Virus record (IMG/VR): IMGVR_UViG_3300033149_004327
Coordinates: 1 to 45,896 of that record
DNA length: 45,896 nt
Source of the DNA: a virus
Reading direction: 5' to 3' (one strand)
The notes below the pieces were generated by a model. That model was not told where the DNA came from, searched no databases, and was given only the letters and a program-made list of their open reading frames with translations. Positions 6,565 to 35,378 of this stretch are shown here, in pieces; within the stretch, counting starts at the first letter, position 1; every line of letters starts with the position of its first letter. A program made the position numbers and the translations under genes.

Positions 6565-7129
6565 GGAGGCGAACGAGCTTCGCATTCGTGTTTCGATCCG
6601 GGATCTTGATCGAATCAATCGTTTTGTCCTGGATCGTATTGGCTTATCGGTCGAGGACATTCTGAGCAGGGCGATAGAGAACGAGATCATAAAAACCATA
6701 GACTTTGCCCACCTCTGCGCAGAATACGCCGAGCACCGCTCACCAAAATCCTTACACAGCAGCAGAGAGTCCGTGCGACGGAGCGGCCTATCCAATTCTG
6801 CGCGGCCGGCAGGACGGAAAGGGCCCCATCCCGCTCAATGTTCCCCACCCACCGGGGCCCGTCGGGCCCTCCGTCGCACCCCAACGAACGGGTACAAGGA
6901 GCCATCAGAGACCGCCCCCTGTACAAGGGGTGAGGGCGATGAGGAGTGTATTTGGTTGGGTAAGAACCTGTTCTGTCCCTATGCAGCGAGATCGCTCCTT
7001 GAGGCCAGGTATTTCGAGCAGGACTGCCCCCATGCCCCGGCGGGGGTATGGAAGCAATTTAAGAACCGAGAAGAGAGATTGAGATCTGTTCAGGAGCGGC
7101 AGCCCTCGAAGGAGGACCCGGATTCATGA
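6548..7129 (+). CDS. hypothetical protein with C-terminal Cys motif
   Basis: 193 residues, GTG start behind GGAGGGGG, overlapping the preceding gene by 17 bases. Residues 1-55 are a charged helix/strand region that could be a small DNA-binding fold. The C-terminus carries C-x8-C-x8-CPY-x14-CPHAP, matching the motif of the protein at 5423-5812 (C-x8-C-x16-C). The middle (about 60-125) is low-complexity Arg/Ser/Pro. In that middle a different frame (about 6705-6920) reads more like protein (GKGPIPLN), so a frameshift or a nested gene is possible. Both ends of this frame look real; the join is uncertain. Confidence 0.55.
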   Translation: MVKIIREANELRIRVSIRDLDRINRFVLDRIGLSVEDILSRAIENEIIKTIDFAHLCAEYAEHRSPKSLHSSRESVRRSGLSNSARPAGRKGPHPAQCSPPTGARRALRRTPTNGYKEPSETAPCTRGEGDEECIWLGKNLFCPYAARSLLEARYFEQDCPHAPAGVWKQFKNREERLRSVQERQPSKEDPDS

Positions 7130-8490: not shown

Positions 8491-8876
8491 GAGAAAGGAT
8501 CTCTAAACACTGCAAGGTGGTCAACAGGAACCGCCGCGGTGATAATATTGAGTACGGCCGGCGCGTGTTCCGCATGAACAGACTGTTCCGGAACGTGCCC
8601 GACGAGGACCTGGAGAGGATCTTTAACGACAAGGATCTGGGATTGGGGGATTATGTACGCGAGGCTGAGAAGCTGGAAGAAACTCGCGAAACGACGAAGG
8701 CCTCCAGGATTGTGGCCGAAGCGAAGCCTTGCGAGTGCGGATGCGGTGCCGTGGCCAGAGCGGGAAGGCGGTTTCTGCAGGGACACGATGCGAAGCTCAA
8801 GTCTAGGCTGAGAAAGGCGGCGAAGGACGGGGACAGCGCAGCGATCAAAGAGCTGAAAGCCCGGGGATGGTTCTGA
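8478..8876 (+). CDS. Cys-motif protein with GHDAKLK signature
   Basis: 132 residues; ATG behind AAGGAGAG and overlapping the helicase gene by 13 bases. The C-terminal 50 residues have CECGCG, then RRFLQGHDAKLK and a basic helix ending in LKARGWF. The CxCGCG plus GHDAKLK layout is a recurring small zinc-binding module in phage and bacterial proteins of unknown function. The N-terminal 75 residues are charged and helical. Its place between helicase and nuclease suggests a DNA-processing accessory role, which is inference only. Confidence 0.7.
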   Translation: MPSIRERISKHCKVVNRNRRGDNIEYGRRVFRMNRLFRNVPDEDLERIFNDKDLGLGDYVREAEKLEETRETTKASRIVAEAKPCECGCGAVARAGRRFLQGHDAKLKSRLRKAAKDGDSAAIKELKARGWF

Positions 8877-11403: not shown

Positions 11404-13179
11404 ATGCTGATATCTAAAATCGAAGATTATCATAGGCTGTTAGAGCGCTTGCACAGCGGGCACAATTTAATGGTCTACGATCTGGAGACCACCGGGCTAA
11501 ACCCGTTTGCGGACGCGCACCTGATAGGTGTGGCCATTGCGGTGCCCGATTTAACGAGCGGCGACGGGGGAGAGTCCTACTATATTCCGTTCCGGCACAA
11601 ACCCGGGCCCAATTTGCCGCTTGCCGAGCTGTACAAGCTGGCCCCCTTGCTGGCGGATCCCGGCAGAGTCCTGATGGGGTTCAATGTCAAGTTCGATGTC
11701 CATTTTACCGAAGCGGAACGCATAGCGGTACACAATCAGCTCATAGATGTGATGCTGGGGGCCCATCTAGCGAACGAGAACGAGATGAGCTTCTCTCTCA
11801 AGCGCCTGGGGACAAAGTACGTGGATCATCATGCTTCCACCGAGGACAGGCAACTGATCGCTAGGCTGGAGCAGCGGGGGTTGGGCAAGGCCGACATGTT
11901 CAAGCTGTCGCCGGAGGAGGTGGCCCCGTATGCGGAGACCGATGTAAAGCTTACATGGGCCCTCGCTAAGTTCTACAGCGACAACCTGGAGAAGCAGGGG
12001 ATCAACGCCCTGTGGCCGGAGCTAAACAGGTACCTGGAGGCCGTCATAGCGATGGAGCGCCGCGGTGTCCTGATTAATGTGGACGCGTGCCGTCGTCGTC
12101 TCGCAGAGGCGGAGGAAAAACAGGAGCAGCTAAAAAAGGAGATGTGCCGGATCGTCGGCCGCAAGTTTAACCCGGCCAGCGTCCCGCAGCTCCGTAATAT
12201 ACTCGGGCAACGGGCCACAGATCGAGCAGCGCTGAGCAGATCCAAACATCCGATTGCCCAGCTGATATTGGAATACAGGGCTTGGGCCAAGGCGGCCGGC
12301 ACATTTTACCGCGCCCTCCTGGATAAGATGGACGACAGCTACAGGGTGCACCCCAGCTTTAACCTGATAGGGACGGTCTCGGGCCGCCTGTCCTGTACGG
12401 AGCCGAATCTGCAGGCACTTCCCAAGGGGGGGGATGGTGTGTATAAGGTCAGGGAGCTCATCGTGGCCCCACCCGGCTATACCCTAATGTCCTGGGACCT
12501 GAGCCAGGCAGAGCTTCGCCTGCTGGCTCATTACTCCCAGGACACCTTTCTACTCGATGCATTCAAGGAGCGCAAGGATATTCATGGGGAGACGGCGGCC
12601 GCCCTGGGCATCCCGCGGGATTTCGCCAAGAGGATCAACTTCGGCGCCATTTACGGAATCGGTCCAGACAGGCTGGCCGGGATCCTAGGTGTAGACAGAG
12701 GGACAGCGGCGGACTACCTGAATCGCTATCACCGTAATCTCCCGGGCGTGTACCGTCTCCACCAGAAAGTCGTCCGGATAGCGGAACGGGATCGAAAGAT
12801 ACCGATGTGGACCGGTCGCCTCCGGCACTACAGGGACGCGGACGAGGCTCACAAAGCAATGTCAAACCTCATTCAGGGCGGAGTCGCCGAGATGATGCGC
12901 GTGATAATGACGAAGCTGCACGGTATAATGAGAGGAACCGGGGCCCGTCAGGTGCTACAGATTCACGACGAAATACTATTTGAGATCCCGGAGGGCCAGC
13001 ACAACGCCGTGGACTGGGCCGTGACGATCAAGGAGGCGATGGAAGACTTTAATTTCTCGGTCCCCATAGTTGCGGAGGGGCGCATCGGGTACTCCTGGGG
13101 GGCGGACGTCATGCGGCCGATCGAGTACGATCTTGCCGGGGTGCCCGTCATCCCGAACATCGCAGGGGGCAGGACTTGA
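11404..13179 (+). CDS. family A DNA polymerase with 3'-5' exonuclease
   Basis: 591 residues, no 5'-nuclease domain. Exonuclease residues: D26 and E28 in YDLETTGL, D98 in GFNVKFD, Y176 and D180 in YAETD. Polymerase motif A is WDLSQAELR (D365), motif B R405-x3-K409-x3-F413 with FGAIYG, motif C QIHDE (H521, D522). The residue matching E. coli Pol I Phe762 is Phe413; the one matching Ile709 is Ala369. It is directly followed by the PurZ/PurA-like gene, the neighbourhood expected of DpoZ polymerases in aminoadenine phages. The start is ATG 11404 behind GGAG. The 84-base upstream gap is GC-rich with self-complementary stretches but no recognised site. Confidence 0.95.
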   Translation: MLISKIEDYHRLLERLHSGHNLMVYDLETTGLNPFADAHLIGVAIAVPDLTSGDGGESYYIPFRHKPGPNLPLAELYKLAPLLADPGRVLMGFNVKFDVHFTEAERIAVHNQLIDVMLGAHLANENEMSFSLKRLGTKYVDHHASTEDRQLIARLEQRGLGKADMFKLSPEEVAPYAETDVKLTWALAKFYSDNLEKQGINALWPELNRYLEAVIAMERRGVLINVDACRRRLAEAEEKQEQLKKEMCRIVGRKFNPASVPQLRNILGQRATDRAALSRSKHPIAQLILEYRAWAKAAGTFYRALLDKMDDSYRVHPSFNLIGTVSGRLSCTEPNLQALPKGGDGVYKVRELIVAPPGYTLMSWDLSQAELRLLAHYSQDTFLLDAFKERKDIHGETAAALGIPRDFAKRINFGAIYGIGPDRLAGILGVDRGTAADYLNRYHRNLPGVYRLHQKVVRIAERDRKIPMWTGRLRHYRDADEAHKAMSNLIQGGVAEMMRVIMTKLHGIMRGTGARQVLQIHDEILFEIPEGQHNAVDWAVTIKEAMEDFNFSVPIVAEGRIGYSWGADVMRPIEYDLAGVPVIPNIAGGRT

Positions 13180-13258: not shown

Positions 13259-14365
13259 GTGGACGAAAGGAAAGACATCGACATCGTTGTCGGCGGTCAG
13301 TATGGGGACGAGGGAAAGGGCATGGTGGCCAAGCTGCTGGCTGACAGGGCCGAGGAGGCCGGGCGGCCGTACGCCTGGACCGGGCGGGTCGGCGGGCAGA
13401 ATGCCGAGCACAGATTCATCCACGGCGCCTGCGATTTCTGCGCCAGAATTCTCCCGTCAGCATCGTGCTACAGGCCCAACATAATGGCGGTCCTGGGGGC
13501 CGGGCATTGCTTCATGCCGGAGCATCTCATCAGGGAGGCAACACATCTCGGGGTACCGCTGAACAGGATCATAGTGGACCCTCACGCCATGTGGCTGCGT
13601 CCGGACCATGCGAAGGCAAATTTGGAGATAGGAAACGCAAGGGGCACGACGGGATGGGGCGTAGGCGCTGCGATAGCGGAGAAGGTCCGCCGCGGCCCGG
13701 GCACAAAGTTGGTCGGAGACTGCGAAGAGCTGAGGCAGGCCCTGGGCAAAAACCTGAGATCAGTACCGGAGTACATAGAGGAGTCTCCCGGGCCCGCTCT
13801 GGTGGAGGGCTCTCAGGGTGCGTTGCTGTCGCTGAACCACGGCCATTACCCGTATTGCACATCAAAGGACGTGACGGTGCCCGCGCTGGCCGCAGAGATG
13901 GGGTTTAGTTATAAGCGTATCAGGTCCGTCGTGGGCGTGTTCAGGACCGTCCTCATGAGGGTGCCCGGCCACAGCGGACCGGCGGCCGGGAGGGAGCTAT
14001 CGTTCGACGAGGTGGAGAAAAGGACTGCATTAAGGATACCCCACCACAAGAGAATGCAGGGGGACTCTACCCGCTGGCGGGTTCAGGGGGACCCGGACGG
14101 AATAAAGGAAGAGAGGCTCTTCGAGTTCAATGCGGAAGAGCTCCGTAAATCACATACACTGAACAGATACGACGCCCTGGCCCTGACGTTTGCGGATTTC
14201 CACCGCAGGGGCAACTATAGGGTAACTAAGTGGAAGGAGCTGCACCCGGACACCCGGCGCCTGGTCCTGGACATCCAGGACATTATAGGCGTACCGGTCA
14301 TCTTGGTACGGACGGGCCCGGGTGAGCACGACAATATCTGGAGACCAAACGGAGGCAGCCTATGA
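13259..14365 (+). CDS. purZ: adenylosuccinate synthetase-like enzyme, PurZ/PurZ0 candidate
   Basis: 368 residues, GTG start six bases after AAAGGAGG. The PurA-family signatures are present: GGQYGDEGKG (residues 12-21; Asp17, Lys20), NAEH with His51 matching the catalytic His, GTTGWGVG, and VEGSQGALLSLNHGHYPY. It is shorter than bacterial PurA (about 430) and close to phage PurZ. PurZ joins aspartate to dGMP on the path to 2-amino-dATP, while PurA uses IMP. As recalled, classic PurZ replaces the catalytic Asp by Ser, whereas this protein keeps Asp17, as in PurA and the PurZ0 group. The segment matching the GTP-specificity motif (TKLDVLD) reads TLNRYDAL, so the cofactor may differ. The polymerase neighbour favours a PurZ-type role. 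Confidence 0.8.
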   Translation: MDERKDIDIVVGGQYGDEGKGMVAKLLADRAEEAGRPYAWTGRVGGQNAEHRFIHGACDFCARILPSASCYRPNIMAVLGAGHCFMPEHLIREATHLGVPLNRIIVDPHAMWLRPDHAKANLEIGNARGTTGWGVGAAIAEKVRRGPGTKLVGDCEELRQALGKNLRSVPEYIEESPGPALVEGSQGALLSLNHGHYPYCTSKDVTVPALAAEMGFSYKRIRSVVGVFRTVLMRVPGHSGPAAGRELSFDEVEKRTALRIPHHKRMQGDSTRWRVQGDPDGIKEERLFEFNAEELRKSHTLNRYDALALTFADFHRRGNYRVTKWKELHPDTRRLVLDIQDIIGVPVILVRTGPGEHDNIWRPNGGSL

Positions 14366-22189: not shown

Positions 22190-22813
22190 ATGCCGAAATT
22201 CAGCCGGCACTCAACCCGTAAACTAGCAACCTGCCACCCGGACCTCGTGCGCCTGTTCCAGGAAATTATCAAGCACTTCGACTGTACCATCTTGGCCGGA
22301 TACCGAGGCGAACGCGAACAGGAGCAGCTCTACCTAGCGGGGAACAGCAAACTCCGATACCCCAAATCTAAACACAACCGCATACCATCCATGGCCGTAG
22401 ACGCTATACCCTACTACAACAAGCCACCACATGTTCGCTGGGACGATCAAAAGCGTATATTCTATTTCGGAGGGTTCGTTACGGGAACCGCCGCTACGCT
22501 CGGGATCCCGCTGAGATGGGGCGGGGACTGGGACCGGGACACGATACCAGGGGGCGGATTCGAGGATCTTGTACATTTCGAGTTGGAGGGGCCTATGAAA
22601 ATACCGATCGACAAAGCGCTGAGTCTGGTCCAAAGACTGCTGGACTGGATAGAACGCCGAAAGGCCGAAGCGCCGGACAGGAGGTGGAAACGTGACAAGG
22701 AAGAACTACTGCGGGCGCTGGAGACGGGCGACATTGGTACTGTTAATAAGCTCCTGTCTCGTATGCTCGACGACCTGCACGAGAACGGAAACACGACTAG
22801 TTCCTCTGGCTGA
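22190..22813 (+). CDS. endolysin, M15-type L-Ala-D-Glu/D-Asp peptidase
   Basis: 207 residues, ATG behind CGGAG. Zinc-site signatures of VanY/M15 endolysins: SKHN (His near 62), SMAVDAIPY (Asp near 70), LRWGGDWD, and DLVHFEL (His near 126). This class cuts peptide cross-links of peptidoglycan, as in phage T5 endolysin and Listeria Ply500. The C-terminal 60 residues are a charged helical extension. No signal peptide, so it needs a holin. A lipoprotein-like gene is nested in its 3' end in another frame. Confidence 0.85.
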   Translation: MPKFSRHSTRKLATCHPDLVRLFQEIIKHFDCTILAGYRGEREQEQLYLAGNSKLRYPKSKHNRIPSMAVDAIPYYNKPPHVRWDDQKRIFYFGGFVTGTAATLGIPLRWGGDWDRDTIPGGGFEDLVHFELEGPMKIPIDKALSLVQRLLDWIERRKAEAPDRRWKRDKEELLRALETGDIGTVNKLLSRMLDDLHENGNTTSSSG

Positions 22814-23323: not shown

Positions 23324-23934
23324 TGGTGTCTGTACAGAAATCCGGCGTCGAGAAACGACACGCCGAGGCCCTATACCGTCTCGGGCGTACGGAAGACGAC
23401 CAATACCGATTGAAAGGGCGGAAAGGCCTGTTCCGGGATTTCATGTACAGGGAAGCCCGCAAGCTCGCAAGGTTGGGCATGACGATGGAGGAGATCGCCG
23501 ACTTCTGGGGCGTTTCCAGGCGCACACTGCAACGGTGGGCGGCAGCGAGACCCGACTTTTGTCACACCATAAAAAAAGCCAGGGCCGAAGCCGACACGAA
23601 GGTTGAAGAGAGCCTGTACAACAGAGCCCGAGGATACAAATACACTGAGAAGCATTATGAAACCAGATTCAACGAAGTAACCGGCCGGATGGAGAAGGTG
23701 CTGGTCCGGGCAATCGAGAAGCATGTGCCTCCGGACACAACAGCGGCCGTGTTTTGGCTCCTGAATCGTAAGCGCGAACGTTGGAAGGATAGGCGGCAGC
23801 TGGAGATTACGCCTGATAGCCGGCTCCCATTGGAAATCATTGTAAAAGATGGTAGGAAAAAGGAGGGCCGAGTCATCGGTCCGGCGGAAGAAGATAGAGC
23901 TCTTCCCGCACCAGGCAAGGGCCCTACAGAGTAA
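23323..23934 (+). CDS. terminase small subunit
   Basis: 203 residues. A helix-turn-helix (MTMEEIADFWGVSRRTLQRW, about 52-71) is followed by an oligomerisation-type helix and the segment VPPDTTAAVFWLLNRKRERWKDR, characteristic of TerS proteins. It recognises packaging sites and activates the large subunit encoded next. The ATG overlaps the previous stop by one base. Confidence 0.88.
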   Translation: MVSVQKSGVEKRHAEALYRLGRTEDDQYRLKGRKGLFRDFMYREARKLARLGMTMEEIADFWGVSRRTLQRWAAARPDFCHTIKKARAEADTKVEESLYNRARGYKYTEKHYETRFNEVTGRMEKVLVRAIEKHVPPDTTAAVFWLLNRKRERWKDRRQLEITPDSRLPLEIIVKDGRKKEGRVIGPAEEDRALPAPGKGPTE

Positions 23935-25339
23935 CAAGAAGTTCGTAGGGTTCATCGGCGGTACGGGAGGGGGCAAGACTTATTTTGGCCCGATCTGGCT
24001 CAGCTGTGAGATCGCTAAAGCGCCTAGGGAGGAATTCATGGTGGCCGCACCGACGTACAAGATCCTGATGCGGGCTACACTGCCAAAACTCCAGGAGATC
24101 TATCGGGGCACGCAGCTACAAGGAAACCTGAAGAGCACCATCGGCGTATACGAGCTGCCCCAGGGCGGCCGGATCTGGCTCGGAACGGCCGACCGCCCGG
24201 AATCGCTCGAAGGGGGCCAATATAAGGCTGCCTGGCTTGACGAGGCCGGCCAGATGAAGTACATGGCCTGGGTGGCGATCCAGGCTCGCCTTGGCCTGAA
24301 GCGCGGGCGCTGTCTCCTCACCACCACCCCGTACGGCCGCAATTGGCTTTACCGTAATTTTTACAAGCTGTGGCGCAAGGGCTATGCGGATTACGACGTG
24401 GTTTCGTTTGAGTCATCGGACAATCCGCTTTACCCGAAGGAGGAGATTGAACGCGCCAGGAGAGAGCTGAGCGCGGAGCTCTTTGACATGCGCTACCGCG
24501 GAGCATTTAGAAAGATGGAGGGCCTGGTGTACCCGGACTTTTCCGACTATCACGTCTGCGAGCCGTTCGACATTCCGGCCTCCTGGGACCTCCGCGGCGG
24601 TTGCGATTTTGGCTATGTAAACCCACACGTCAATCTTAAGGGGGCCCGGGATCCGCGCAAGGACGTCATTTACGTCTACGAGGAGTATTATAAGTCGTTT
24701 AAACAACTGAAGGAGATCGCCGAGACGATGTTTGACGTCCCCTGGCTCGGCGACCCCGAGGGCCGACGCGAGATCGAAGAACTCCGAGCCCTGGGCGTAG
24801 ACATAAAAAGCGGCGAAACCGCGAAGACTCTCTGCATCGCGGCTGTAAGAGCCAGAATACGCACCGGTCGGCTTCGTATCTTCACCTCATGCCCGTTTAC
24901 GCTGGACGAAATCGAGACCTACCACTTCGATCAAAAAACAAAAAAGCCAGTGAAAGAGGACGATCACTGCATGGACGCTTTGGCCCAACTCGTCTGGCAT
25001 TTTGATGGTGCTCGAATACGCAAGAGCCGAGTCCACATCAGCCGGATGCCGCGGCATTTTTCTGCACTGGCCGGGGATGCGGATCCGGCCGAGGCTGATC
25101 TAAGGGTTCGGCAGATCATGAGGCGGGCGAAACAACCGCCGACGGTCCGGAAGGCCATAACGGACGCTAAGAGGGAAGCCAGGCGGAAGGGGAGGGGCCC
25201 TGGTGCAGGACCGACCGTTGTGAAGCCGGGTGTAAATATAGTGGCGCCGAAGAAAAAGGAGTCCGCTGAGGACCAAGCGATGCCCAGGAAGGAGATTTAT
25301 CATGGCCGAAAAAAGAGCAAAGTCTATCTCCCGCGCTAA
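23849..25339 (+). CDS. terL: terminase large subunit
   Basis: 496 residues. ATPase: Walker A GGTGGGKT (Lys43) and Walker B AWLDEAGQ (Asp131, Glu132). Nuclease: Asp253 in GCDFGY and the end motif DDHCMDAL (Asp376). This is the packaging motor that cuts and translocates DNA into the prohead. It overlaps TerS by 86 bases in another frame and the portal by 38 bases. The C-terminal 90 residues are a basic, probably disordered extension. Confidence 0.95.
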   Translation: MVGKRRAESSVRRKKIELFPHQARALQSNKKFVGFIGGTGGGKTYFGPIWLSCEIAKAPREEFMVAAPTYKILMRATLPKLQEIYRGTQLQGNLKSTIGVYELPQGGRIWLGTADRPESLEGGQYKAAWLDEAGQMKYMAWVAIQARLGLKRGRCLLTTTPYGRNWLYRNFYKLWRKGYADYDVVSFESSDNPLYPKEEIERARRELSAELFDMRYRGAFRKMEGLVYPDFSDYHVCEPFDIPASWDLRGGCDFGYVNPHVNLKGARDPRKDVIYVYEEYYKSFKQLKEIAETMFDVPWLGDPEGRREIEELRALGVDIKSGETAKTLCIAAVRARIRTGRLRIFTSCPFTLDEIETYHFDQKTKKPVKEDDHCMDALAQLVWHFDGARIRKSRVHISRMPRHFSALAGDADPAEADLRVRQIMRRAKQPPTVRKAITDAKREARRKGRGPGAGPTVVKPGVNIVAPKKKESAEDQAMPRKEIYHGRKKSKVYLPR

Positions 25340-26762
25340 GACCGAGGTGCGGAAAAGTCGGGTACACCGCTACGTCGTCACAGATCGGGGGGTTTACCCG
25401 TTCTCCCTATTGAAGAAGCACGAAGAGAACCTGGCTCAGTCGCGCCAGCTGGAAGAGGACGATCCTGCCTGGATGCGCGAACATGGGCTCATCGAGTTGC
25501 CGTTCAACGTTGGATCGCTCCTTTGGATGCAGGACAACTGCACGTATTTCGACGCTTGCGTTCGGCAGATAGCAACCGATGTCATCGCCGGAGGCTACAT
25601 GCTCGTACCGGTCGAGGAGGGGAAAGATGACGAGGCGGAACGGAAGGAGATTGAGCAGCTCTTAAACGATCCGAATAACGCCGACGAGACGTTTCTCGAT
25701 ATCGTGCACAAATGTGTCATCGACTGGGGCGTTGTCGGCTGGTGGGCCATTGAGGTGAGCCGCGGCGCCGACGGGCTGGTTAACGGGCTCTTTCACGTAC
25801 CGGCCCACACGATGCGTGTTCACCGTAGCCGGCGGAAGTATTGTCAGGTGCGCGATACTCGCAAGCGTTGGTTCATCCGGTTCGGTGAGAGCCTGACCGT
25901 GAACGAGAACACCGGGGCCGAACACAAGACCTCGAAACACCGGGCCAATGAGATTATATTCCACGGACAGTACTACGCTCAGAACACCTACTACGGCCGG
26001 CCGAATATTCTCCCGGCCGTCGGCGCATCGGCCGGACTGATCGGTGTGCGATCCTACAACCTGGCGTTCTTCGAGAACTACGGGATCCCGGCCGCCTTCG
26101 TCCTCCTGGAGGGCGAATGGGAAGAGGGAAGCGCGAAGCTCATTTCCGACTTTCTGGAGAACGAAATCAAAGGGTCTGAAAACGCTCACAAGACAATCGT
26201 GCTCGAAATCGCGCCGGGATCCACGGTGACATGGAAGCCTCTGGCCGTGGAGGAGAAGGAGGGCCATTTCGTCGTGTACGCGAAGGAGCTCCGGGATGAG
26301 ATCCTGAGCGCCTACAAGATGCCGCCCTATCGAATCGGGATCGCCGAGGTCGGGAAGCTCGGCGGCACGACCGCACCGACCGCCGACCGGATCTATATCA
26401 AGGCCGTCGTGGAGCCTCTGCAGCAGCTGTTTGAGAGGTTGATTACAGCAAAGGTCCTGAGGCAGGGCCTGGGGGCGGAGCGCTATCGGCTGCAGTTTAA
26501 CAAGATCGATACCCGCGATTGGGATGCCCTGGTCGAACGTTGGGAGCGGCTCTTCGGGATGGGCGTAATAACGCCCGGATGGATGGCTGAGCAGCTCGGC
26601 CTCCCGACCGATGAGATGCCGCACGCGGGGGATTATTTCCTATCAAATCGCTATGTACCCGTGGATGAGGCGGGCCTAGTGCCAGCCGAGATGTCTGACG
26701 AGGACATTCGCCGTGCCGTCGAGGAGGTCGTGGCTCAGGCCAAGAAGGGGGCGGGGAAATGA
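25302..26762 (+). CDS. portal protein
   Basis: 486 residues behind AAGGAGAT. It has the HK97/PBSX-type portal pattern: NCTYFDACVRQIATDVIAGG near 80-100, FHGQYYAQNTYYGRPNILPA near 222-240, NYGIPAAFVL, and ILSAYKMPPYRIGIAE near 330-345. It forms the dodecameric ring at the capsid vertex through which DNA passes. The position directly after TerL agrees. Confidence 0.93.
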   Translation: MAEKRAKSISRAKTEVRKSRVHRYVVTDRGVYPFSLLKKHEENLAQSRQLEEDDPAWMREHGLIELPFNVGSLLWMQDNCTYFDACVRQIATDVIAGGYMLVPVEEGKDDEAERKEIEQLLNDPNNADETFLDIVHKCVIDWGVVGWWAIEVSRGADGLVNGLFHVPAHTMRVHRSRRKYCQVRDTRKRWFIRFGESLTVNENTGAEHKTSKHRANEIIFHGQYYAQNTYYGRPNILPAVGASAGLIGVRSYNLAFFENYGIPAAFVLLEGEWEEGSAKLISDFLENEIKGSENAHKTIVLEIAPGSTVTWKPLAVEEKEGHFVVYAKELRDEILSAYKMPPYRIGIAEVGKLGGTTAPTADRIYIKAVVEPLQQLFERLITAKVLRQGLGAERYRLQFNKIDTRDWDALVERWERLFGMGVITPGWMAEQLGLPTDEMPHAGDYFLSNRYVPVDEAGLVPAEMSDEDIRRAVEEVVAQAKKGAGK

Positions 26763-27487
26763 GGCTCCCGGAGCTCGTTATCATCGGAGCACCGCGCTGC
26801 GGTACGAGCTCGCTTTGGGCCATGCTGAAGCACCTGCCCAAAACAAAAACGCCCCGAATAAAAGAGGCGCATTTCTTCAATCGCAAGTGGGACCGAGGCC
26901 TCCGGTGGTATTCCGGCTTTTTTTCTAAAGCGGGTGGCGATGTCCTCTGCTTCGAGGCGACGCCAGCCTATCTTGCGACACCGAACGTACCTGAAAGGGT
27001 CGCGGCTTCGCTCCCAGACGCCCGGTTTGTGGTCATGCTTCGGGACCCCGTGGCGCGGGCGATCTCTCATTATTGGCTGAATCAGCATCGGTTTAAGAAT
27101 CTTCAGGGGTTGATCAATCCTAAGAGCCGCTGTGTTGCGCCAGGTCGCTATGCAGAACACCTTGAGCGCTGGTACCGCCATGTAGGACGGGAACGGGTCC
27201 TCGTCATCATCTCGGAGCGATTCTTCGAGGATCCGGTTCGTGAGGCAATGCGGGCCCTACTCCATGTCGGGAGACACGACCTGGTATGCCATCTCCGTCC
27301 GATATACCACGATCCGCTGGCGAGGTGGAAGAAAAAGTACGGTCCGCCTAGGATACCGATTTACGTTATCCATTGGCTTAGGGAACACTACAAGGAACCG
27401 AACCGCCGGCTGGCCCGGATGCTGGCCGGAGATAACACAACGGCCGACTGGATGGACGGCCGAATAAAACCAAAGGAGCGCACATGA
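26759..27487 (+). CDS. sulfotransferase-family protein
   Basis: 242 residues, ATGA overlap with the portal gene. The PAPS-binding loop is IIGAPRCGTSSL (residues 8-19) and the 3'-phosphate motif is VVMLRDPVARAISHYW (near 90-105), both standard in bacterial sulfotransferases. It would move a sulfate from PAPS to a hydroxyl acceptor, perhaps glycans on the virion or host surface. Its insertion between portal and head genes is unusual; a second family member occurs at 41286-41948. Confidence 0.85.
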   Translation: MRLPELVIIGAPRCGTSSLWAMLKHLPKTKTPRIKEAHFFNRKWDRGLRWYSGFFSKAGGDVLCFEATPAYLATPNVPERVAASLPDARFVVMLRDPVARAISHYWLNQHRFKNLQGLINPKSRCVAPGRYAEHLERWYRHVGRERVLVIISERFFEDPVREAMRALLHVGRHDLVCHLRPIYHDPLARWKKKYGPPRIPIYVIHWLREHYKEPNRRLARMLAGDNTTADWMDGRIKPKERT

Positions 27488-27822: not shown

Positions 27823-28698
27823 ATGGAAGACAGGCTCGTGGCGGCGATCCGGAAGTGGCTTGTGTATCGGATCACCGCGGCAGCAACCGTCGAGATCGCG
27901 AAGCGGACATCGCCACGCAAGCACTGGCAGCAGTACCGGCGCCTGCTGGCCCGGACGCAAGCGGCGCTGGAGCCGGCCGTGGCATCGTTCTTCCGCTGGC
28001 TGCGTGCGGAGCTTAAGCCGGGCATTCCGGAAGCTCTAAACGCCGGGAATCCGGATGTGATGGCTGACTGGGCTGCGATCGAGGCTGAGGGGGCTCGGCG
28101 AATGCGGCAACCGATCCTCGAGGCCTTGGCTGCGGGGGGCCGGGCCGTCGTTGAGCGGGGCTACTTTCAGAAGCAGGAACCGCGCTTCGACCCGATCGGC
28201 GAGGAGGCCGTCTCGTGGACCTGGAGCCGGTCGGCCGAGCTTGTGACGGCTATTACAATTGGGACACGCGATGCGGTAATGTTAATTATTCAAGATGCAG
28301 TACGTTTCGGTTGGTCCCCTCAGAAGACTGCTCGCCTCCTCCGATCGACAGTAGGACTTCTGCCACGCCACGTGACTGCTGTGTCGCGCGTACTGACGGA
28401 GGCAATTAAGGCGGGTGTGTCTTATGAAAAAGCGTTCAAGGCCGCGGAACGTTACGCCAATAAACTTCATCGCTATCGAGTGCGGATGATCGCTCGTACC
28501 GAGGCGGCGTTCGCGAACTCGGAGGGCATTCGCCAGGGCTTTGGTCAGCTCGGTGTCGAGCGGCTCCGCTGGGTTGCTGACCCCGAAGCCTGCGAGATTT
28601 GCGCCGCAAACGATGGTTCTGAGTTTACGATTGCCGAGGCCGAAGGGCTGATACCGGCGCATCCTCATTGCGAATGCACTTGGGTCGCGGCGGGATAG
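27823..28698 (+). CDS. MuF-like head morphogenesis protein
   Basis: 291 residues, ATG with GGAGGG upstream. The C-terminal 80 residues contain the MuF signature: MIARTEAAFANSEG, then WVADPEACEICAANDG and HPHCECTW with its metal-binding Cys/His. MuF proteins follow the portal and are injected or minor capsid components. No toxin domain is fused to the C-terminus. Confidence 0.88.
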   Translation: MEDRLVAAIRKWLVYRITAAATVEIAKRTSPRKHWQQYRRLLARTQAALEPAVASFFRWLRAELKPGIPEALNAGNPDVMADWAAIEAEGARRMRQPILEALAAGGRAVVERGYFQKQEPRFDPIGEEAVSWTWSRSAELVTAITIGTRDAVMLIIQDAVRFGWSPQKTARLLRSTVGLLPRHVTAVSRVLTEAIKAGVSYEKAFKAAERYANKLHRYRVRMIARTEAAFANSEGIRQGFGQLGVERLRWVADPEACEICAANDGSEFTIAEAEGLIPAHPHCECTWVAAG

Positions 28699-29704: not shown

Positions 29705-29862
29705 GGATGGCGCGAACCAAGTGCCCGCGCTGCGGCGGGGGCATGATCGTGGTGCCGGCCTGTTGCGCCTTGAGGCGCAAGGGCTGGGCTACGATGGCGA
29801 AATGTCCGCGGAGCGGGTGCGGCCATAGGCTCCCGTATGAGAAGAGAGGAGGCGCCAAATGA
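29701..29862 (+). CDS. small zinc-ribbon protein
   Basis: 53 residues, translated by hand, held between ATGA overlaps on both sides. CPRCGG (near 8-13) and CPRSGCGH (near 35-42) make a zinc ribbon with a basic linker. It is coupled to the large protease/ligase gene that follows and could be an accessory to it. Confidence 0.65.
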   Translation: MRMARTKCPRCGGGMIVVPACCALRRKGWATMAKCPRSGCGHRLPYEKRGGAK

Positions 29863-32800
29863 GGATCGAAGATGTTACGGCCGAGGCGTTGCGGAAGGTC
29901 CCGGACTCCGAGCTCTATGCAATGCGACTCCGGTTCATCCAGCTATGGCAAAAAAACTTTGCGGGCAGCAAGCGCCAGCAGGTGGGGGGCTTGGAGCGCG
30001 CTGACATGCTGAAGCGCTACCGCAGCCTCGTAGACGAACTGAAGCGCCGAGGACTGCGCTACAGCACGAAGTACAGTATCGATCGGGCCCTGTTCCGCAA
30101 GTCAATGCTGGGAATCGATATACGGGATTTCGACGAGATGGTGGTCGTTCCGGATTACGTCTCGATAGCGGGGTCATTCGTCAAGAGCCCGAAGGACGCC
30201 AACGACGTGGACATTGTGTTGCGGGAGAGCGCCGATAACCGCGACGAGGGTCTGGAGCTGAAGCTGGGGCGGATTGTCCAGACGAAGACGGGCAAGGATC
30301 CGCATTTTGTCTATGCGCTGAGGGGCCCGCATTCGAATTATATTCCGGTCTACGATCTCGTGCTCCGGCCCAAGGACAGGCTGGCGAGGGTCCGGATCCA
30401 GGAGGGGGTAAGCAAGCAGGACGAACGGCTGACGCTCAGGCTCCTGGGGACGGGAGCCGTGGAGAGCAAGCGCAAGGGGGAGGCCCTGCTGGTGCAGTAC
30501 GGGGGGCTGAACGTCCTCATCGACGCCAACGAGGACCTGGCCGTATCCCGGCTTCCCCGCTTCGACGCGATCCTGGTGTGCGACGAGAAGAAGCACTATG
30601 TGGAGATCGCGCGGGACATCGCCACTGCCCAGGGGTTGCCGGAGCCCTCGGCCGGGAGCTTCAAGCAGGGGGGCCTAGAGATTGAACCCTTCCCCGTGAA
30701 GTACACGGGGCACCGGATCTACGGCTATGAGATAAGGGCCGGAGGGGTGAGGGCGGTGTACGCGCCCGAATTTGCGGAACCACCGATCAATAGGCTCAGG
30801 GGGGCTGACATCGCCATCCTGGAGGGCTCGGCCTGGAGCCGACCGATAGCCTTTGCGGGCGGGGCGGGGGGCCACGCTCCGATCCTGGATACGTGGGAAA
30901 GAGCGCGTGACGCCGGCGTCAAGCGCATCGTCTTTACACACATAGGGAAGCCGGTCGAGGCGCACCTGGACGATGCGCGTGAGCTGGGAATAGAGATAGG
31001 GCGCGACGGTCAGGTGTTCCGCCCGATCGTGAAGGCTCGCACGATAAGGCTTGTCCCCGGGCATCCATTTACCCCGCTGAAGTCACGAGGCGGGTATGGT
31101 AAGTACGAGTTCGGCGATATCGAGGACCTCTGGACCACCTGGGCGCAGGGCTACATTCCCGACCCTGGCATCGCCGTTGAGACGAAGTTCGACGGGTTCC
31201 GCGTCCAGATTCACAAGCGCGGCTCCGATGTGAGGGCCTACAGCGAGGACGCGAAGCGGGACATAAGCGACGTGATCAAGGACGCCACCGAAGAGATCGC
31301 GGCCATGGACGGCACGTTCATCCTTGACGGGGAGCTAACCGTCTGGGTCGAGGGGAAGAAGATCGAGCGGAAGGACATGCCGTCCTACATTATGGCGAAG
31401 AGGCCTCCGGAGTTCACGCCGAAGATTGCCGTCTTTGACTGTCTCTGGTACGACGGCCGGGATCTCCACAATCTGCCCTGGACGGAGCGCCAGAAGTATC
31501 TCGACCGCCTGTTCGCCGGCGTGGACGAAAAGCTCCTGGAGCGCGTGAAGCCGACCATCGCCAGGACCGAGCGGGAGTTCAAGGGGGCGGTCCGCAAGCA
31601 TAGCGCCGAACCCCACAGCGAGGGCGCCATGTGCAAGGTGCTGAATTCCCCGTACCCCCTCGACGGGGAGACGGCCGAGTGGGCCAAGTTCAAGAACCTC
31701 AAGGAGCTAAGGGTGCGCGTCGTCGACCGAACGGCCAAGGAAGGCGGCGGGTGGGTCTACGAGTGCGAGATCGCCGGCGGGGTACCAATCGGCCGCACCT
31801 ACGCGACGAGGATCGAGGCGAAGAAAGGTGACGTGCTGGAGGTGGCCGTTGCCGAGGTCAAGTACGACGAGGACGGGGACAGGTTCACCTGGGATAATCC
31901 GATCGTGAGGAGCAAGAAGCCGGCGGGAACGGCGCTCACCACGGCGGAGCAAGCGAAGGCAATCGCAGCCCGACGGAGAACAAAGGCCGCTTACAGATGC
32001 GAATGCACACAATGTGGTTATACGCTAGAATCAGATGCCCATTGCAGAGATGTAGAATGTCCCAAATGCGGGGGTGAGATGAGGAGGCTGGAGAGGCCCG
32101 GCCCCGGCTATGTGGAAAAAGAGGAAGTCGGCAATATCACGTTCAAAGAGGGCGACTCCGGCACCGGGGTCGCTCAGCTCCACATAATGGGTCTCTCCGA
32201 TGGGGCGGCATTGGTATTGAAGGACGGCGAAGCCGGGATCCTGGTGGCAAGGACCGACATCGGCAAACTCGAACGCAAGCTCCTTGACGTGATCGGCGAT
32301 TACGGCGCTCACATTGACATGCGCCTCCGCCGCGATAAGGAAAACACCTGGCAGGGCAATGAGGTCTTCATTGGGAAAATTTCCGGGCTTTCGAAGCTCA
32401 AGGCCCTAAACGAAAGGAAGAAGGTGCTACGCGCGCCATGGAAGCAAGGGCGCGCCGGCGAACCGGAAACCGAAGTCATCCGGGGTCCGTTGGGATGGAT
32501 GGAAGCCGGGGGCCGGCGGATCGAAATCTTTGAACCGGGCTCGCCGGGGGCGTCGGCGAATAAGTGGGGTGCAATGATCCGCATAGATAAGTTCCGCTGG
32601 AAACTTTACTGTGCCGAAGAGCACGCAAAGAAGTTCCGCTTCGAGGGCGGGCGGGTATTCGACGGGAACTACTTGTTCTCCTTCGTGCCGACCGACGGCG
32701 AAAGAGTCTGGATGATAAAGCGCCTCGCCGATGATGACCACGAAAAGCCTGTCAAAAAGGAAGAACCGGTCTTCAAGTTCCGGATCTACAAAAAGGTCAA

Positions 32801-33146
32801 GACGAAGCAAATCGTGGGCGGCGTCGTTTACGAACCGGATTCCGTTGATACCCAGGGCGACTACACCACGGCCGAAGAAATCGAAGAGGCCATGTATCGA
32901 TTCATGGAAAAATACGCCAAGAACAAGGCCCGGATAAAGGTTCAACACGAAGGCCGGGCTTATGATTTCCCGATCCTTGAGTGCTTTCAGCCCGAGCACG
33001 ACATCCGGCGCGGCGGCAAGGTCGTGAAGGCCGGTTCGTGGTGGCTAATGCTGAAGGTCACGGACCCGGCCATCTGGGAAATGGTCGAGGAGGGTCGCCT
33101 TAACGCCTTTAGCATGGGCGGACGCGCCAGAGGGGCATATACTTGA
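29859..33146 (+). CDS. prohead protease fused to ATP-dependent DNA ligase (multidomain)
   Basis: 1095 residues behind AGGAGG. (a) Pol-beta-type nucleotidyltransferase motif GS...DVD (Gly105-Ser106, Asp116, Asp118). (b) Metallo-beta-lactamase-like region about 190-380, with LLGTGA (near 195-200) and FTHIGK but no HxHxDH, so probably inactive. (c) ATP-dependent ligase: KFDGFR (Lys443), DGEL (Glu492), FDCLWYDG, EGAMCK and WAKFK, then an OB-like part to about 700. (d) Zinc ribbon C714/C716/C719 and C729/C734/C737. (e) HIDMRL (818-823), the HxDxRL signature of LigD 3'-phosphoesterases. (f) XkdF-like protease about 975-1095: VVYEPDSVDTQGD, His1030, FSMGG with Ser1085. It lies between MuF and major capsid, the normal place of a maturation protease. 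It may be cut to release repair enzymes inside the head. Confidence 0.88.
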   Translation: MRIEDVTAEALRKVPDSELYAMRLRFIQLWQKNFAGSKRQQVGGLERADMLKRYRSLVDELKRRGLRYSTKYSIDRALFRKSMLGIDIRDFDEMVVVPDYVSIAGSFVKSPKDANDVDIVLRESADNRDEGLELKLGRIVQTKTGKDPHFVYALRGPHSNYIPVYDLVLRPKDRLARVRIQEGVSKQDERLTLRLLGTGAVESKRKGEALLVQYGGLNVLIDANEDLAVSRLPRFDAILVCDEKKHYVEIARDIATAQGLPEPSAGSFKQGGLEIEPFPVKYTGHRIYGYEIRAGGVRAVYAPEFAEPPINRLRGADIAILEGSAWSRPIAFAGGAGGHAPILDTWERARDAGVKRIVFTHIGKPVEAHLDDARELGIEIGRDGQVFRPIVKARTIRLVPGHPFTPLKSRGGYGKYEFGDIEDLWTTWAQGYIPDPGIAVETKFDGFRVQIHKRGSDVRAYSEDAKRDISDVIKDATEEIAAMDGTFILDGELTVWVEGKKIERKDMPSYIMAKRPPEFTPKIAVFDCLWYDGRDLHNLPWTERQKYLDRLFAGVDEKLLERVKPTIARTEREFKGAVRKHSAEPHSEGAMCKVLNSPYPLDGETAEWAKFKNLKELRVRVVDRTAKEGGGWVYECEIAGGVPIGRTYATRIEAKKGDVLEVAVAEVKYDEDGDRFTWDNPIVRSKKPAGTALTTAEQAKAIAARRRTKAAYRCECTQCGYTLESDAHCRDVECPKCGGEMRRLERPGPGYVEKEEVGNITFKEGDSGTGVAQLHIMGLSDGAALVLKDGEAGILVARTDIGKLERKLLDVIGDYGAHIDMRLRRDKENTWQGNEVFIGKISGLSKLKALNERKKVLRAPWKQGRAGEPETEVIRGPLGWMEAGGRRIEIFEPGSPGASANKWGAMIRIDKFRWKLYCAEEHAKKFRFEGGRVFDGNYLFSFVPTDGERVWMIKRLADDDHEKPVKKEEPVFKFRIYKKVKTKQIVGGVVYEPDSVDTQGDYTTAEEIEEAMYRFMEKYAKNKARIKVQHEGRAYDFPILECFQPEHDIRRGGKVVKAGSWWLMLKVTDPAIWEMVEEGRLNAFSMGGRARGAYT

Positions 33147-33172
33147 CAAACGTATTATCCGTGTGCTATAAT
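33143..33172 (+). promoter_or_regulatory. sigma70-type promoter of the scaffold/capsid unit
   Basis: TTGACA (33143-33148), 18-base spacer, TATAAT (33167-33172), with TGC in front of the -10. The TGA stop of the protease/ligase gene lies within the -35 box. It would boost transcription of scaffold and major capsid protein over the upstream head genes. Confidence 0.85.
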
Positions 33173-33396: not shown

Positions 33397-34233
33397 ATGC
33401 CAAAGAAATTAGAGGACATAGACATCGACGAGGTTAGCCTAGTCGATGCCGGAGCGGTCCGTAAAACCTTTTACATCAAGAAGAGGAGGGCAATCATGGA
33501 CTTGGTGCAGATACTGAAGGATCTGCTGGGTCCGGAAACCGAGCTGAGTGAAGAGGAGATCGAGAAGGCGAAGGGGCTCACCGAGCAGGCCGCGAAGGCA
33601 ATCTCCGGAGCGCTGGCGATCCTGAACAAGTACAAGGACGACATGCCCGATGATGTCCTGAAAGCCATCAAGACTCTGGCGAAGTACTCAAGCTACGGGT
33701 ATCCGGCGAAGAAGAGCGCCGAGGTCGACTTCCTGGCCGAGCTGACCGACGTGGAGAAGGCCCGTACGAAGCTGGATGGGGCGACCACCGAGGAGCTAAA
33801 GAAGGCCACCGAAATCCTTAAGGGGTTCATCGAGGAGCGCGAGGAGAGCCTGAGGAAGAGCACATCGATCGATCTCGATAAGCTCTCACCCGAGCTGAGG
33901 GCGCGGCTCGAACGACTGCAGCGCTGGGAGCAGGAGCAGGTGCGGAAACAGAAGGAGGCCGAGGAGCGCGAGCGCGAGGAGCTGAAAAAGCAGATCAAGG
34001 AACTCACAGACACCGTGAAGAAACTCGCCCGCGGCGAGCCCGTGAGCAAGCAACTTGACGATGATGGTGACGACGACGAGCCGGGCTCTGAAGACAAGCC
34101 GCTAACGAAAGCAAAGCTGGCAACCATGTCAACCGCCGATATTCGGAAGTTGGCTGACAAGGGGGTCATCGACCTCTGGCCGTCGCTTACGTTTGAGCGG
34201 CTCGTCGACACCGGAAAAGGCAAGGAGAATTGA
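33397..34233 (+). CDS. capsid scaffold-like protein with XkdF-type N-terminal tail
   Basis: 278 residues from ATG 33397. The first 28 residues (LEDIDIDEVSLVDAGA then RKTFYIKK) match the segment that usually ends an XkdF-type protease, so part of the protease module is split into this gene. The rest is helical and very charged: a coiled coil near 160-215 (EQEQVRKQKEAEEREREE) and an acidic patch DDDGDDDE, typical of scaffolds. It precedes the major capsid gene directly. An internal ATG at 33495 is a possible second start. Confidence 0.7.
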   Translation: MPKKLEDIDIDEVSLVDAGAVRKTFYIKKRRAIMDLVQILKDLLGPETELSEEEIEKAKGLTEQAAKAISGALAILNKYKDDMPDDVLKAIKTLAKYSSYGYPAKKSAEVDFLAELTDVEKARTKLDGATTEELKKATEILKGFIEEREESLRKSTSIDLDKLSPELRARLERLQRWEQEQVRKQKEAEEREREELKKQIKELTDTVKKLARGEPVSKQLDDDGDDDEPGSEDKPLTKAKLATMSTADIRKLADKGVIDLWPSLTFERLVDTGKGKEN

Positions 34234-34235
34234 CG

Positions 34236-35378
34236 ATGCTGGGAAGCAAAGACATCTTAAAACGAAAATTCGGAATCAAAAAAGCCTACAACCTGATTTC
34301 GATGCCGGAGATCCAGCTCCAACCAAAGGAAGCTGAGCAGTTCATTGAGTACATGTGGGACGAAAGCGTGATGAAGAACTACGCCCGCAAGATCGTCATG
34401 GACCGGCCGCAGGAGGAGATCCGGGGCATTGGATTCGGAGAGGGCCGATTTCTCGTGCCGGCCAACCAATTCGATGAGTCAAGGTACAAGAAACAATGGG
34501 CCCAGAACAAAATCACCCTATCGACCGTCGAGCTTCTGGGGGCGTTCCCGATTTATGACAAGGATGTCGAAGATCTGAGGCACATCGAGAACGAGGCGTC
34601 CTTCAAGAACAAGCTGATGAGTATCGTTGCCAAGAAGATGGCGAACGAGCTCGAAGAGATCGGCTATATGGGCGACACGCACAGCCTGAACGGTTTTTCT
34701 CCCGATGATGCTCGGAGCACGGTCGACGGCTGGCGGTACATCATCAACCACAGTGCCCAGGGCCAGGCGTACTACAACTCGGTCACAGGATCCGCACACA
34801 TCAAGGAAGCCTGTGTCTGCCAGAGCGGCGCGAGCTGTCCTAGCGGAAAGGATGACCCGGATGCGCACTTCAACCTTCCCGGGCTCATCGCCGAGCAGGA
34901 TCCGAATCCGCCCTACAACTGGGAGTTCAAATACCACAAGATGCTGAAGAACATGCCGTCCAAATACAAGACCGCCAACGGTCTGGCCAACATGGTGTTC
35001 CTCAACTCAGACCTCGTGACGCAGGACTATCTGGGTGCGCTGAGCTCCCGGGCCACGGCACTCGGAGATGCCATTTTCACCGGGAAGGTTCCACCCTCCT
35101 ACGGCAAGGTTCCCATTATCGACGTTCCGCTCATGCCGACCAACCTCGGCCAGGACGCTGACGGCACCTATGGGCTCATCGGAGGCGGAGACTACACGGA
35201 CTGCTTGCTGACCGTGAAAAACAATCTCATCATCGGGCTTCAAAGAGATATCCGGATCGAGCCGTGGCGCTATCCGCCCGACCGCGCCTGGTACTTTTTC
35301 TACAGCATCCGGGTCGCGTACGCCATCGAAAACGTCGATGCGATCGTCTTCCTGAGATGTCTGGAGCATGAGTGCTGA
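34236..35378 (+). CDS. major capsid protein (HK97-like fold)
   Basis: 380 residues from ATG 34236, seven bases after AAGGAGAA; a TTG at 34230 is less likely. N-terminal arm, then a long helix (FKNKLMSIVAKKMANELEEIGYMGD) forming the spine-helix region near 125-150, and a C-terminal beta part (LIIGLQRDIRIEPWRYPP, YSIRVAYAIENVDAIVFL). An insertion with four Cys (ACVCQSGASC) may be surface-exposed. Its place after the scaffold gene and own promoter agree. Confidence 0.88.
   Translation: MLGSKDILKRKFGIKKAYNLISMPEIQLQPKEAEQFIEYMWDESVMKNYARKIVMDRPQEEIRGIGFGEGRFLVPANQFDESRYKKQWAQNKITLSTVELLGAFPIYDKDVEDLRHIENEASFKNKLMSIVAKKMANELEEIGYMGDTHSLNGFSPDDARSTVDGWRYIINHSAQGQAYYNSVTGSAHIKEACVCQSGASCPSGKDDPDAHFNLPGLIAEQDPNPPYNWEFKYHKMLKNMPSKYKTANGLANMVFLNSDLVTQDYLGALSSRATALGDAIFTGKVPPSYGKVPIIDVPLMPTNLGQDADGTYGLIGGGDYTDCLLTVKNNLIIGLQRDIRIEPWRYPPDRAWYFFYSIRVAYAIENVDAIVFLRCLEHEC

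Follow-up and report, generated by a model that had tools for sequence, protein, structure and literature searches.

A head maturation protease in one chain with nucleotidyltransferase, DNA ligase and predicted LigD-type phosphoesterase domains in uncultured tailed viruses

Polyvalent proteins of phages and conjugative elements are large multidomain proteins among which a C-terminal assemblin-like peptidase, Pol-beta nucleotidyltransferase (NTase) domains and DNA adenine methyltransferase domains have been described, and they are predicted to be packaged and injected; P1 DdrB is processed before packaging (Iyer et al. 2017, PMC5512222). In phiKZ and 201phi2-1, ejection proteins are cleaved by the prohead protease (PMC5694885), and a eukaryotic DNA virus packages several repair enzymes, among them a DNA ligase and DNA polymerase X (Pol X) (PMC12172490). 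Here we describe a gene in IMG/VR virus record IMGVR_UViG_3300033149_004327 (positions 1 to 45,896; this whole 45,896-nucleotide stretch is called the window) that encodes a polyprotein of this general kind. Sequence motifs and structure models show one chain holding an NTase, a metallo-beta-lactamase (MBL)-fold spacer, a DNA ligase, a LigD-type 3'-phosphoesterase (PE) and a C-terminal XkdF protease with intact catalytic residues, encoded in the slot of the head protease.

Domains of the polyprotein

The gene and its segments are as follows.

29859-33146, + strand: gene of the NTase-MBL-ligase-zinc ribbon-PE-XkdF polyprotein, 1095 aa, ATG start
29859-30416, + strand: N-terminal helical region and Pol-beta-type NTase, residues 1-186 (motifs, Pfam matches in the family, model)
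30414-31043, + strand: PhnP/YhfI-like MBL fold, residues 186-395 (PF12706, Foldseek, sequence comparison), replaced by a methyltransferase in relatives
31044-31958, + strand: ATP-dependent DNA ligase, adenylation domain (K443) and probable oligonucleotide-binding (OB) fold, residues 396-700 (PF01068 4.7e-24, PDB profile search, motif conservation)
31992-32087, + strand: zinc ribbon with four Cys, residues 712-743 (weak Pfam zinc-ribbon matches)
32121-32756, + strand: LigD-type PE domain, residues 755-966 (AlphaFold model, Foldseek, invariant residues; Q773-x-H775, H818-x-D820-x-R822, H922)
32769-33134, + strand: XkdF (Peptidase_S78_2) head maturation protease, residues 971-1092 (PF14550 2.2e-23, phrog_3017 6.9e-26)

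All 1095 codons are open from the ATG, with zero internal stops, so the single uninterrupted frame reported in a preliminary description, made from the sequence alone, stands. Pfam matches are DNA_ligase_A_M (4.7e-24, residues 437-612), Peptidase_S78_2/XkdF (2.2e-23, 976-1091) and Lactamase_B_2 (5e-9, 265-362), the last spanning about half an MBL domain, while PHROGs returned a head maturation protease (phrog_3017, 6.9e-26) and an ATP-dependent DNA ligase (3.8e-19). The residues singled out in that description (GS 105-106, D116/D118, K443 in KFDGFR, HxDxRL 818-823, H1030 and S1085) all lie where it placed them, and its calls of an NTase, a degenerate MBL, a ligase, a zinc ribbon, a PE and an XkdF domain were each borne out.

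An assembly chimera is ruled out, because the same domain order occurs in independent relatives, which a scan of viral contigs recovered from several metagenomes. One full-length relative (L040, 1108 aa) has the identical order and is 62% identical over 1091 codons. Two others (L014 and L141) also have the MBL version but are split by frame breaks within the MBL part, each at a different place; these breaks may reflect either sequencing errors or decay. L002 and L013, which are partial copies of a near relative, share 72-88% protein identity depending on the segment, and comparison with them gave dN/dS values of 0.06 over 255 PE and XkdF codons and 0.1 over 55 NTase codons. A tblastn search of a phage collection matched only pieces of the polyprotein: many isolates have the XkdF part, and ANMV-1 virus has the ligase.

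The ligase retains motifs I, III, IIIa, IV and V (K443, D490-E492, D527, E588 and K610/K612), and K443, E588, K593 and K610 are each conserved in 53/53 family sequences. Its profile match to 3gde (4e-17) against that to the LigD ligase 1vs0 (5.6e-7) places it closer to archaeal/eukaryal DNA ligases than to LigD, and NCBIfam LigD models score far below cut-off. An RNA ligase profile matched marginally, and in one relative only. Apart from the fused enzyme, the window has no PF01068 ligase, and the same is true of 19 of 20 ligase-bearing contigs; the remaining contig, G010, has a separate 296 aa ligase frame. No NAD+ ligase was found in 25 records, comprising the window and 24 related contigs, which may be incomplete. 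The cysteines of the zinc ribbon that follows form two pairs (C714-C719 and C734-C737), and the ribbon recurs in L004 and L016.

The PE had been called from a single HxDxRL motif. Pfam, PDB profile and profile-profile searches gave nothing useful here, and the fold search alone settled the domain: an AlphaFold model built from 24 family members (mean pLDDT, the predicted local confidence score, 88.5) matched the archaeal LigD-type PE 3p43 (E 2.7e-4, prob 1.00) and the Methanocella PE of non-homologous end joining (NHEJ) 5dmp (prob 1.00) in Foldseek, further matches not being significant. Thus, the predicted fold backs the motif-based call. In LigD PE, the metal residues are His42, His48 and Asp50 with Arg52, and His84 and Tyr88 lie at the phosphate site (PMC8656161). 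By motif order, H775 (36/36 in the family) and H818, D820 and R822 (35/35 each) correspond to His42, His48, Asp50 and Arg52. The window PE has a helical insertion of about 40 residues between Q-x-H (773-775) and H-x-D-x-R (818-822); the correspondence is helped by a distant relative, L098, in which both motifs are adjacent as in LigD (VLQAHFRGSGYHLDLRM).

The NTase has a G-S motif and the Asp triad D116/D118/D166. Three relatives match DNA_pol_B_palm (best E 4e-6) and 16 match DUF6932, and the predicted model reaches a pLDDT of about 90 or more across most of residues 1-186. A fold search of residues 1-397 was dominated by MBL matches, and the assignment is made from the sequence motifs, the Pfam matches of the relatives and the predicted topology. 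Of 37 ligase-linked NTase sequences, 36 keep the triad intact and the remaining one is split by an intein, whereas 22 of the 25 sequences without a ligase have a broken triad; on the NTase tree the broken triad requires four changes, at least two of them forced by well-supported branches. NTase catalysis therefore appears to go with the presence of the ligase, and in ligase-less members the domain is presumably kept for another reason, assembly being one possibility.

The segment after the NTase has the fold of PhnP-family MBLs and YhfI (Foldseek 6b9v, 1zkp and 6kns, prob 1.00). Its HxHxDH metal motif is replaced by DEKKHY at 242-247 in the window protein and by CDPESDF in L040 and L014, and the motif is lost in all readable members that bear the segment, so that 'degenerate' was the correct word for it and an active PhnP-family MBL is not indicated.

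At the C terminus, H1030 and S1085 of the XkdF domain are conserved in 82/82 family sequences, which, with the PF14550 match, agrees with the XkdF-like protease proposed earlier. The gene occupies the head-protease slot among the following genes.

23849-25339, + strand: terminase large subunit (PF03237, phrog_2)
25302-26762, + strand: portal protein (PF04860)
27823-28698, + strand: MuF-type head morphogenesis protein (PF04233)
33143-33172, + strand: perfect sigma-70 type promoter match, TTGACA-18-TATAAT (12/12 matches), overlapping the polyprotein stop codon and preceding the scaffold and capsid genes
33397-34233, + strand: probable scaffold, beginning with a DEVSLVDAGA motif
34230-35378, + strand: probable major capsid protein (phrog_1623)

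The series runs portal, MuF, polyprotein, scaffold and capsid protein, with the polyprotein gene at the place that the head protease normally has in tailed viruses, and the order MuF-polyprotein-scaffold-capsid protein is found in 21 of 31 loci, the remainder being short or too divergent to tell.

Family architectures and genome context

Profiles of the NTase, PE and XkdF domains gathered more than 100 loci. The commonest architecture is NTase-methyltransferase-ligase-PE-XkdF (about 20 contigs), in which the methyltransferase of L003 is of the Methyltransf_11/MetW type. Others are the NTase-MBL-ligase-PE-XkdF form of the window, NTase-ligase-PE-XkdF (L016, L062), NTase-XkdF alone (about 25) and larger forms. 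The larger forms include a 2177 aa relative (L065:5881-12411) with three tandem Dam-type (MethyltransfD12) methyltransferase domains after the NTase, and a 2294 aa relative (L087:4883-11764) with one such domain and with intein/LAGLIDADG insertions in the NTase, in ligase motif I, immediately after KFDGFR, and in the PE. A probable metal-binding module, PHKFxPAKxTHxNGHPRCLxCGxEE, stands before the protease or after the NTase in L003, L005, L008, L010, L012, L016, L030 and L065; the window protein does not have it.

The middle of the polyprotein is swapped as one block. L040 has an MBL-ligase middle and L020 a methyltransferase-ligase middle, and the two proteins are 91% identical in the NTase and 95% in XkdF but 64% in the PE and 34% in the ligase, whereas the L040 ligase is 67% identical to that of the window. 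At the DNA level, homology of 78-83% between L040 and L047 (the longer locus of L020's contig) ends at base 6572 of both loci, just past the NTase, and begins again within the PE, at 8692/8638, both break points being sharp. The same MBL-ligase versus methyltransferase-ligase difference separates P0001 and L004, which have sister NTases. The ligases of 19 full-length members average 59% identity when the second module is shared and 34% when it differs. Thus, the middle is an exchangeable cassette, and the variety of its contents (MBL-ligase, methyltransferase-ligase, extra Dam-type methyltransferases) suggests that it is selected by conditions, of the host or of the genome, that vary from one infection to the next.

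Several further features of the window concern its head genes, genome chemistry and host. The promoter match at 33143-33172 has a TG ahead of its second hexamer and is followed by a GC-rich leader of about 225 bases up to the scaffold gene. In the window and in many relatives, the scaffold gene opens with M[AP]xKLxDIDxxE[VI]SLVDxxAxRKxF, which matches the N terminus of phrog_3017 proteases; because this motif is found at the scaffold start instead of the protease N terminus, the protease and the scaffold could together make up a single split unit, perhaps so that the protease becomes active only when the scaffold is present. A sulfotransferase gene (26759-27487) lies between portal and MuF, and L004 and L126 have similar genes in the corresponding position. 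An adenylosuccinate-synthetase homologue (13259-14365; phrog_1211 8.6e-43, NCBIfam PurZ 8.3e-37, below its cut-off) close to a family A DNA polymerase (11404-13179) makes a 2-aminoadenine genome possible for this virus; as a feature of the family it is ruled out, PurA/PurZ being present in 0 of the 24 related contigs. The endolysin (22190-22813; phrog_465, 6.6e-34) suggests a bacterial host, whereas the contig of the close relative L141 was binned with a Pacearchaeota archaeon. The sole match in a genome search for the host was a contig of 6.6 kb binned with Pacearchaeota, which is too weak for host assignment.

Possible roles of the fused enzymes

We consider it probable, at roughly 0.55, that the polyprotein is a DNA-repair cargo packaged in the head and freed by its own maturation protease. 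The XkdF end would co-assemble with the scaffold in the prohead, bringing the N-terminal enzymes inside, and would then cleave the scaffold and the linkers, releasing the enzymes. These would remain with the DNA in the head and enter the next host with the genome. There, before the expression of any viral gene, the PE could trim blocked 3' ends of the incoming DNA, the NTase add nucleotides and the ligase seal its nicks or ends. Packaging, cleavage and ejection are proposed because of the precedents of P1 DdrB and the polyvalent proteins, the ejection proteins of phiKZ and 201phi2-1, and the repair enzymes packaged in a eukaryotic DNA virus. Also in favor of this role, NTase, ligase and PE travel together, both in the ANMV-1 virus protein AJP62006.1 and, in another order, in L098, and dN/dS is about 0.06 over PE and XkdF. 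The conserved active sites, the head-gene order, the link between intact NTase and ligase, the cassette swap and the usual lack of a second ligase count for it as well.

Some features of the family weigh against it. Some relatives encode the enzyme part and the protease part in neighbouring genes, for most of which a plausible start codon is present, so that the fusion is not required. A ligase motif drifts in some relatives, DGEL of the window protein being DSSV in L004 and DCGM in L065. The MBL domain appears catalytically dead. Inspection of the PE by eye showed no clear counterpart of LigD His84: G876 and W880 stand at the positions of His84 and Tyr88 as placed by eye, and the invariant His922 might take the place of His84.

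The enzymes could instead act in the producing cell, where, made late, they would repair nicks and gaps in the concatemer, or the ends cut during packaging, at the prohead; nothing would be ejected, and the fusion would only tie repair to assembly. T4 packages nicked DNA poorly, the polyprotein gene lies in a late operon, and the fused ligase is the only recognisable one in most of these genomes, all of which would suit such a role. However, there would be no reason to fuse a free cytosolic ligase to a protein sequestered in the prohead, and cassette exchange fits conflict better than housekeeping, so that we regard this explanation as unlikely. Still less probable is a role directed at RNA, in which ligase, PE and NTase would mend or tag RNA such as cleaved tRNA against host RNases and the methyltransferase variant would add an end modification. 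PhnP-family MBLs act on cyclic phosphates, which can be counted for an RNA role beside the MBL fold match. LigD PEs act on 3' ribonucleotides (PMC8656161), and the Pol-beta NTases of polyvalent proteins have been proposed as conflict effectors (PMC5512222). The ligase profile, however, matches DNA ligases (4e-17), with RNA ligase marginal in a single relative, and the extra cargo of relatives is a Dam-type DNA methyltransferase. Finally, the NTase and other domains might be structural or scaffolding parts of the prohead core whose catalysis is vestigial, as the retention of a broken NTase in most ligase-less NTase-XkdF proteins and the loss of the MBL metal motif could imply; but the Lys, Glu and Lys residues of the ligase motifs and the metal-site residues of the PE are practically invariant, and the NTase is intact whenever a ligase is present, which makes this the least probable of the explanations considered.

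Packaged repair cargo remains the preferred interpretation. A wider version of it is more tentative, and on balance we would not rely on it: a family of tailed viruses would ship a self-releasing, swappable DNA end-repair machine in the capsid, the maturation protease would double as the packaging tag, and ligase cassettes would be exchanged between close relatives because they counter the damage that different hosts inflict on the incoming genome. For tailed prokaryotic viruses no report of DNA repair carried in the virion was found, although a large eukaryotic DNA virus is known to have it. If the packaged-cargo interpretation is true, such viruses reach the host equipped to clean and seal DNA ends, their capsid protease has a second function as a handle for cargo, and natural cassette exchange reveals where the polyprotein tolerates replacement without losing head assembly. 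Whether phage genomes need repair at entry thereby becomes a testable question.

Comparison with known systems

The polyprotein had been likened to LigD of bacterial NHEJ, and for the PE the likeness, also to the PE of archaeal NHEJ, holds in fold and metal-site motif (3p43, 5dmp). As in bacterial LigD (POL-PE-LIG), ligase and PE occur in one chain, and the end-repair tool set is analogous. The likeness does not extend further: the ligase is nearer to archaeal/eukaryal DNA ligases, a Pol-beta NTase replaces the archaeo-eukaryotic primase (AEP)-type polymerase, the domain order is different and the chain is fused to a protease. No Ku was found in the window or the 24 related contigs, which may be incomplete; on this absence in 25 records and on the ligase profile scores, membership in LigD/NHEJ is rejected.

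Closer in content is AJP62006.1 of the archaeal ANMV-1 virus, annotated as an ATP-dependent DNA ligase, which has the order NTase-ligase-PE (profile matches 2.4e-5 for the NTase and 4.3e-42 for the ligase) but lacks an XkdF domain; its PE is recognisable by eye from motif and fold signature, with a profile match of only 0.09. Thus, the enzyme set exists apart from the protease. Conversely, the XkdF-ending PHROGs annotated 'DNA methyltransferase' and 'RNA ligase' (phrog_1530, phrog_14859) share the C-terminal protease and the gene position, and according to their annotation an enzyme domain may precede the protease, whereas the XkdF examples from Curvibacter, Rhizobium and psiM100 are short proteins without the ligase-PE set. 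The giant phages SPN3US and phiKZ resemble the proposed role, in that their head protease processes internal proteins whose ejection along with the DNA is expected, but there protease and cargo are separate genes (PMC5694885).

The preliminary description knew of no described system of this kind, which was too strong a statement, as the general idea of a multidomain injected protein that ends in a capsid-processing peptidase has already been published (PMC5512222). Neither DNA ligase nor LigD-type PE was found in the text of that paper, which does not name XkdF, and searches of the open-access literature gave no description of the XkdF-ligase fusion, of its spread over many uncultured viruses or of cassette exchange. 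Like polyvalent proteins, the polyprotein is a large multidomain viral protein with a C-terminal capsid-type peptidase and a Pol-beta NTase; unlike them, its protease appears to be the head protease of the virus in the normal gene position, and its middle is swapped as a cassette. Thus, the concept of an injected multidomain protein with a capsid-type C-terminal protease is known, whereas an NTase-ligase-PE set on the head protease itself, together with cassette exchange, appears to be new.

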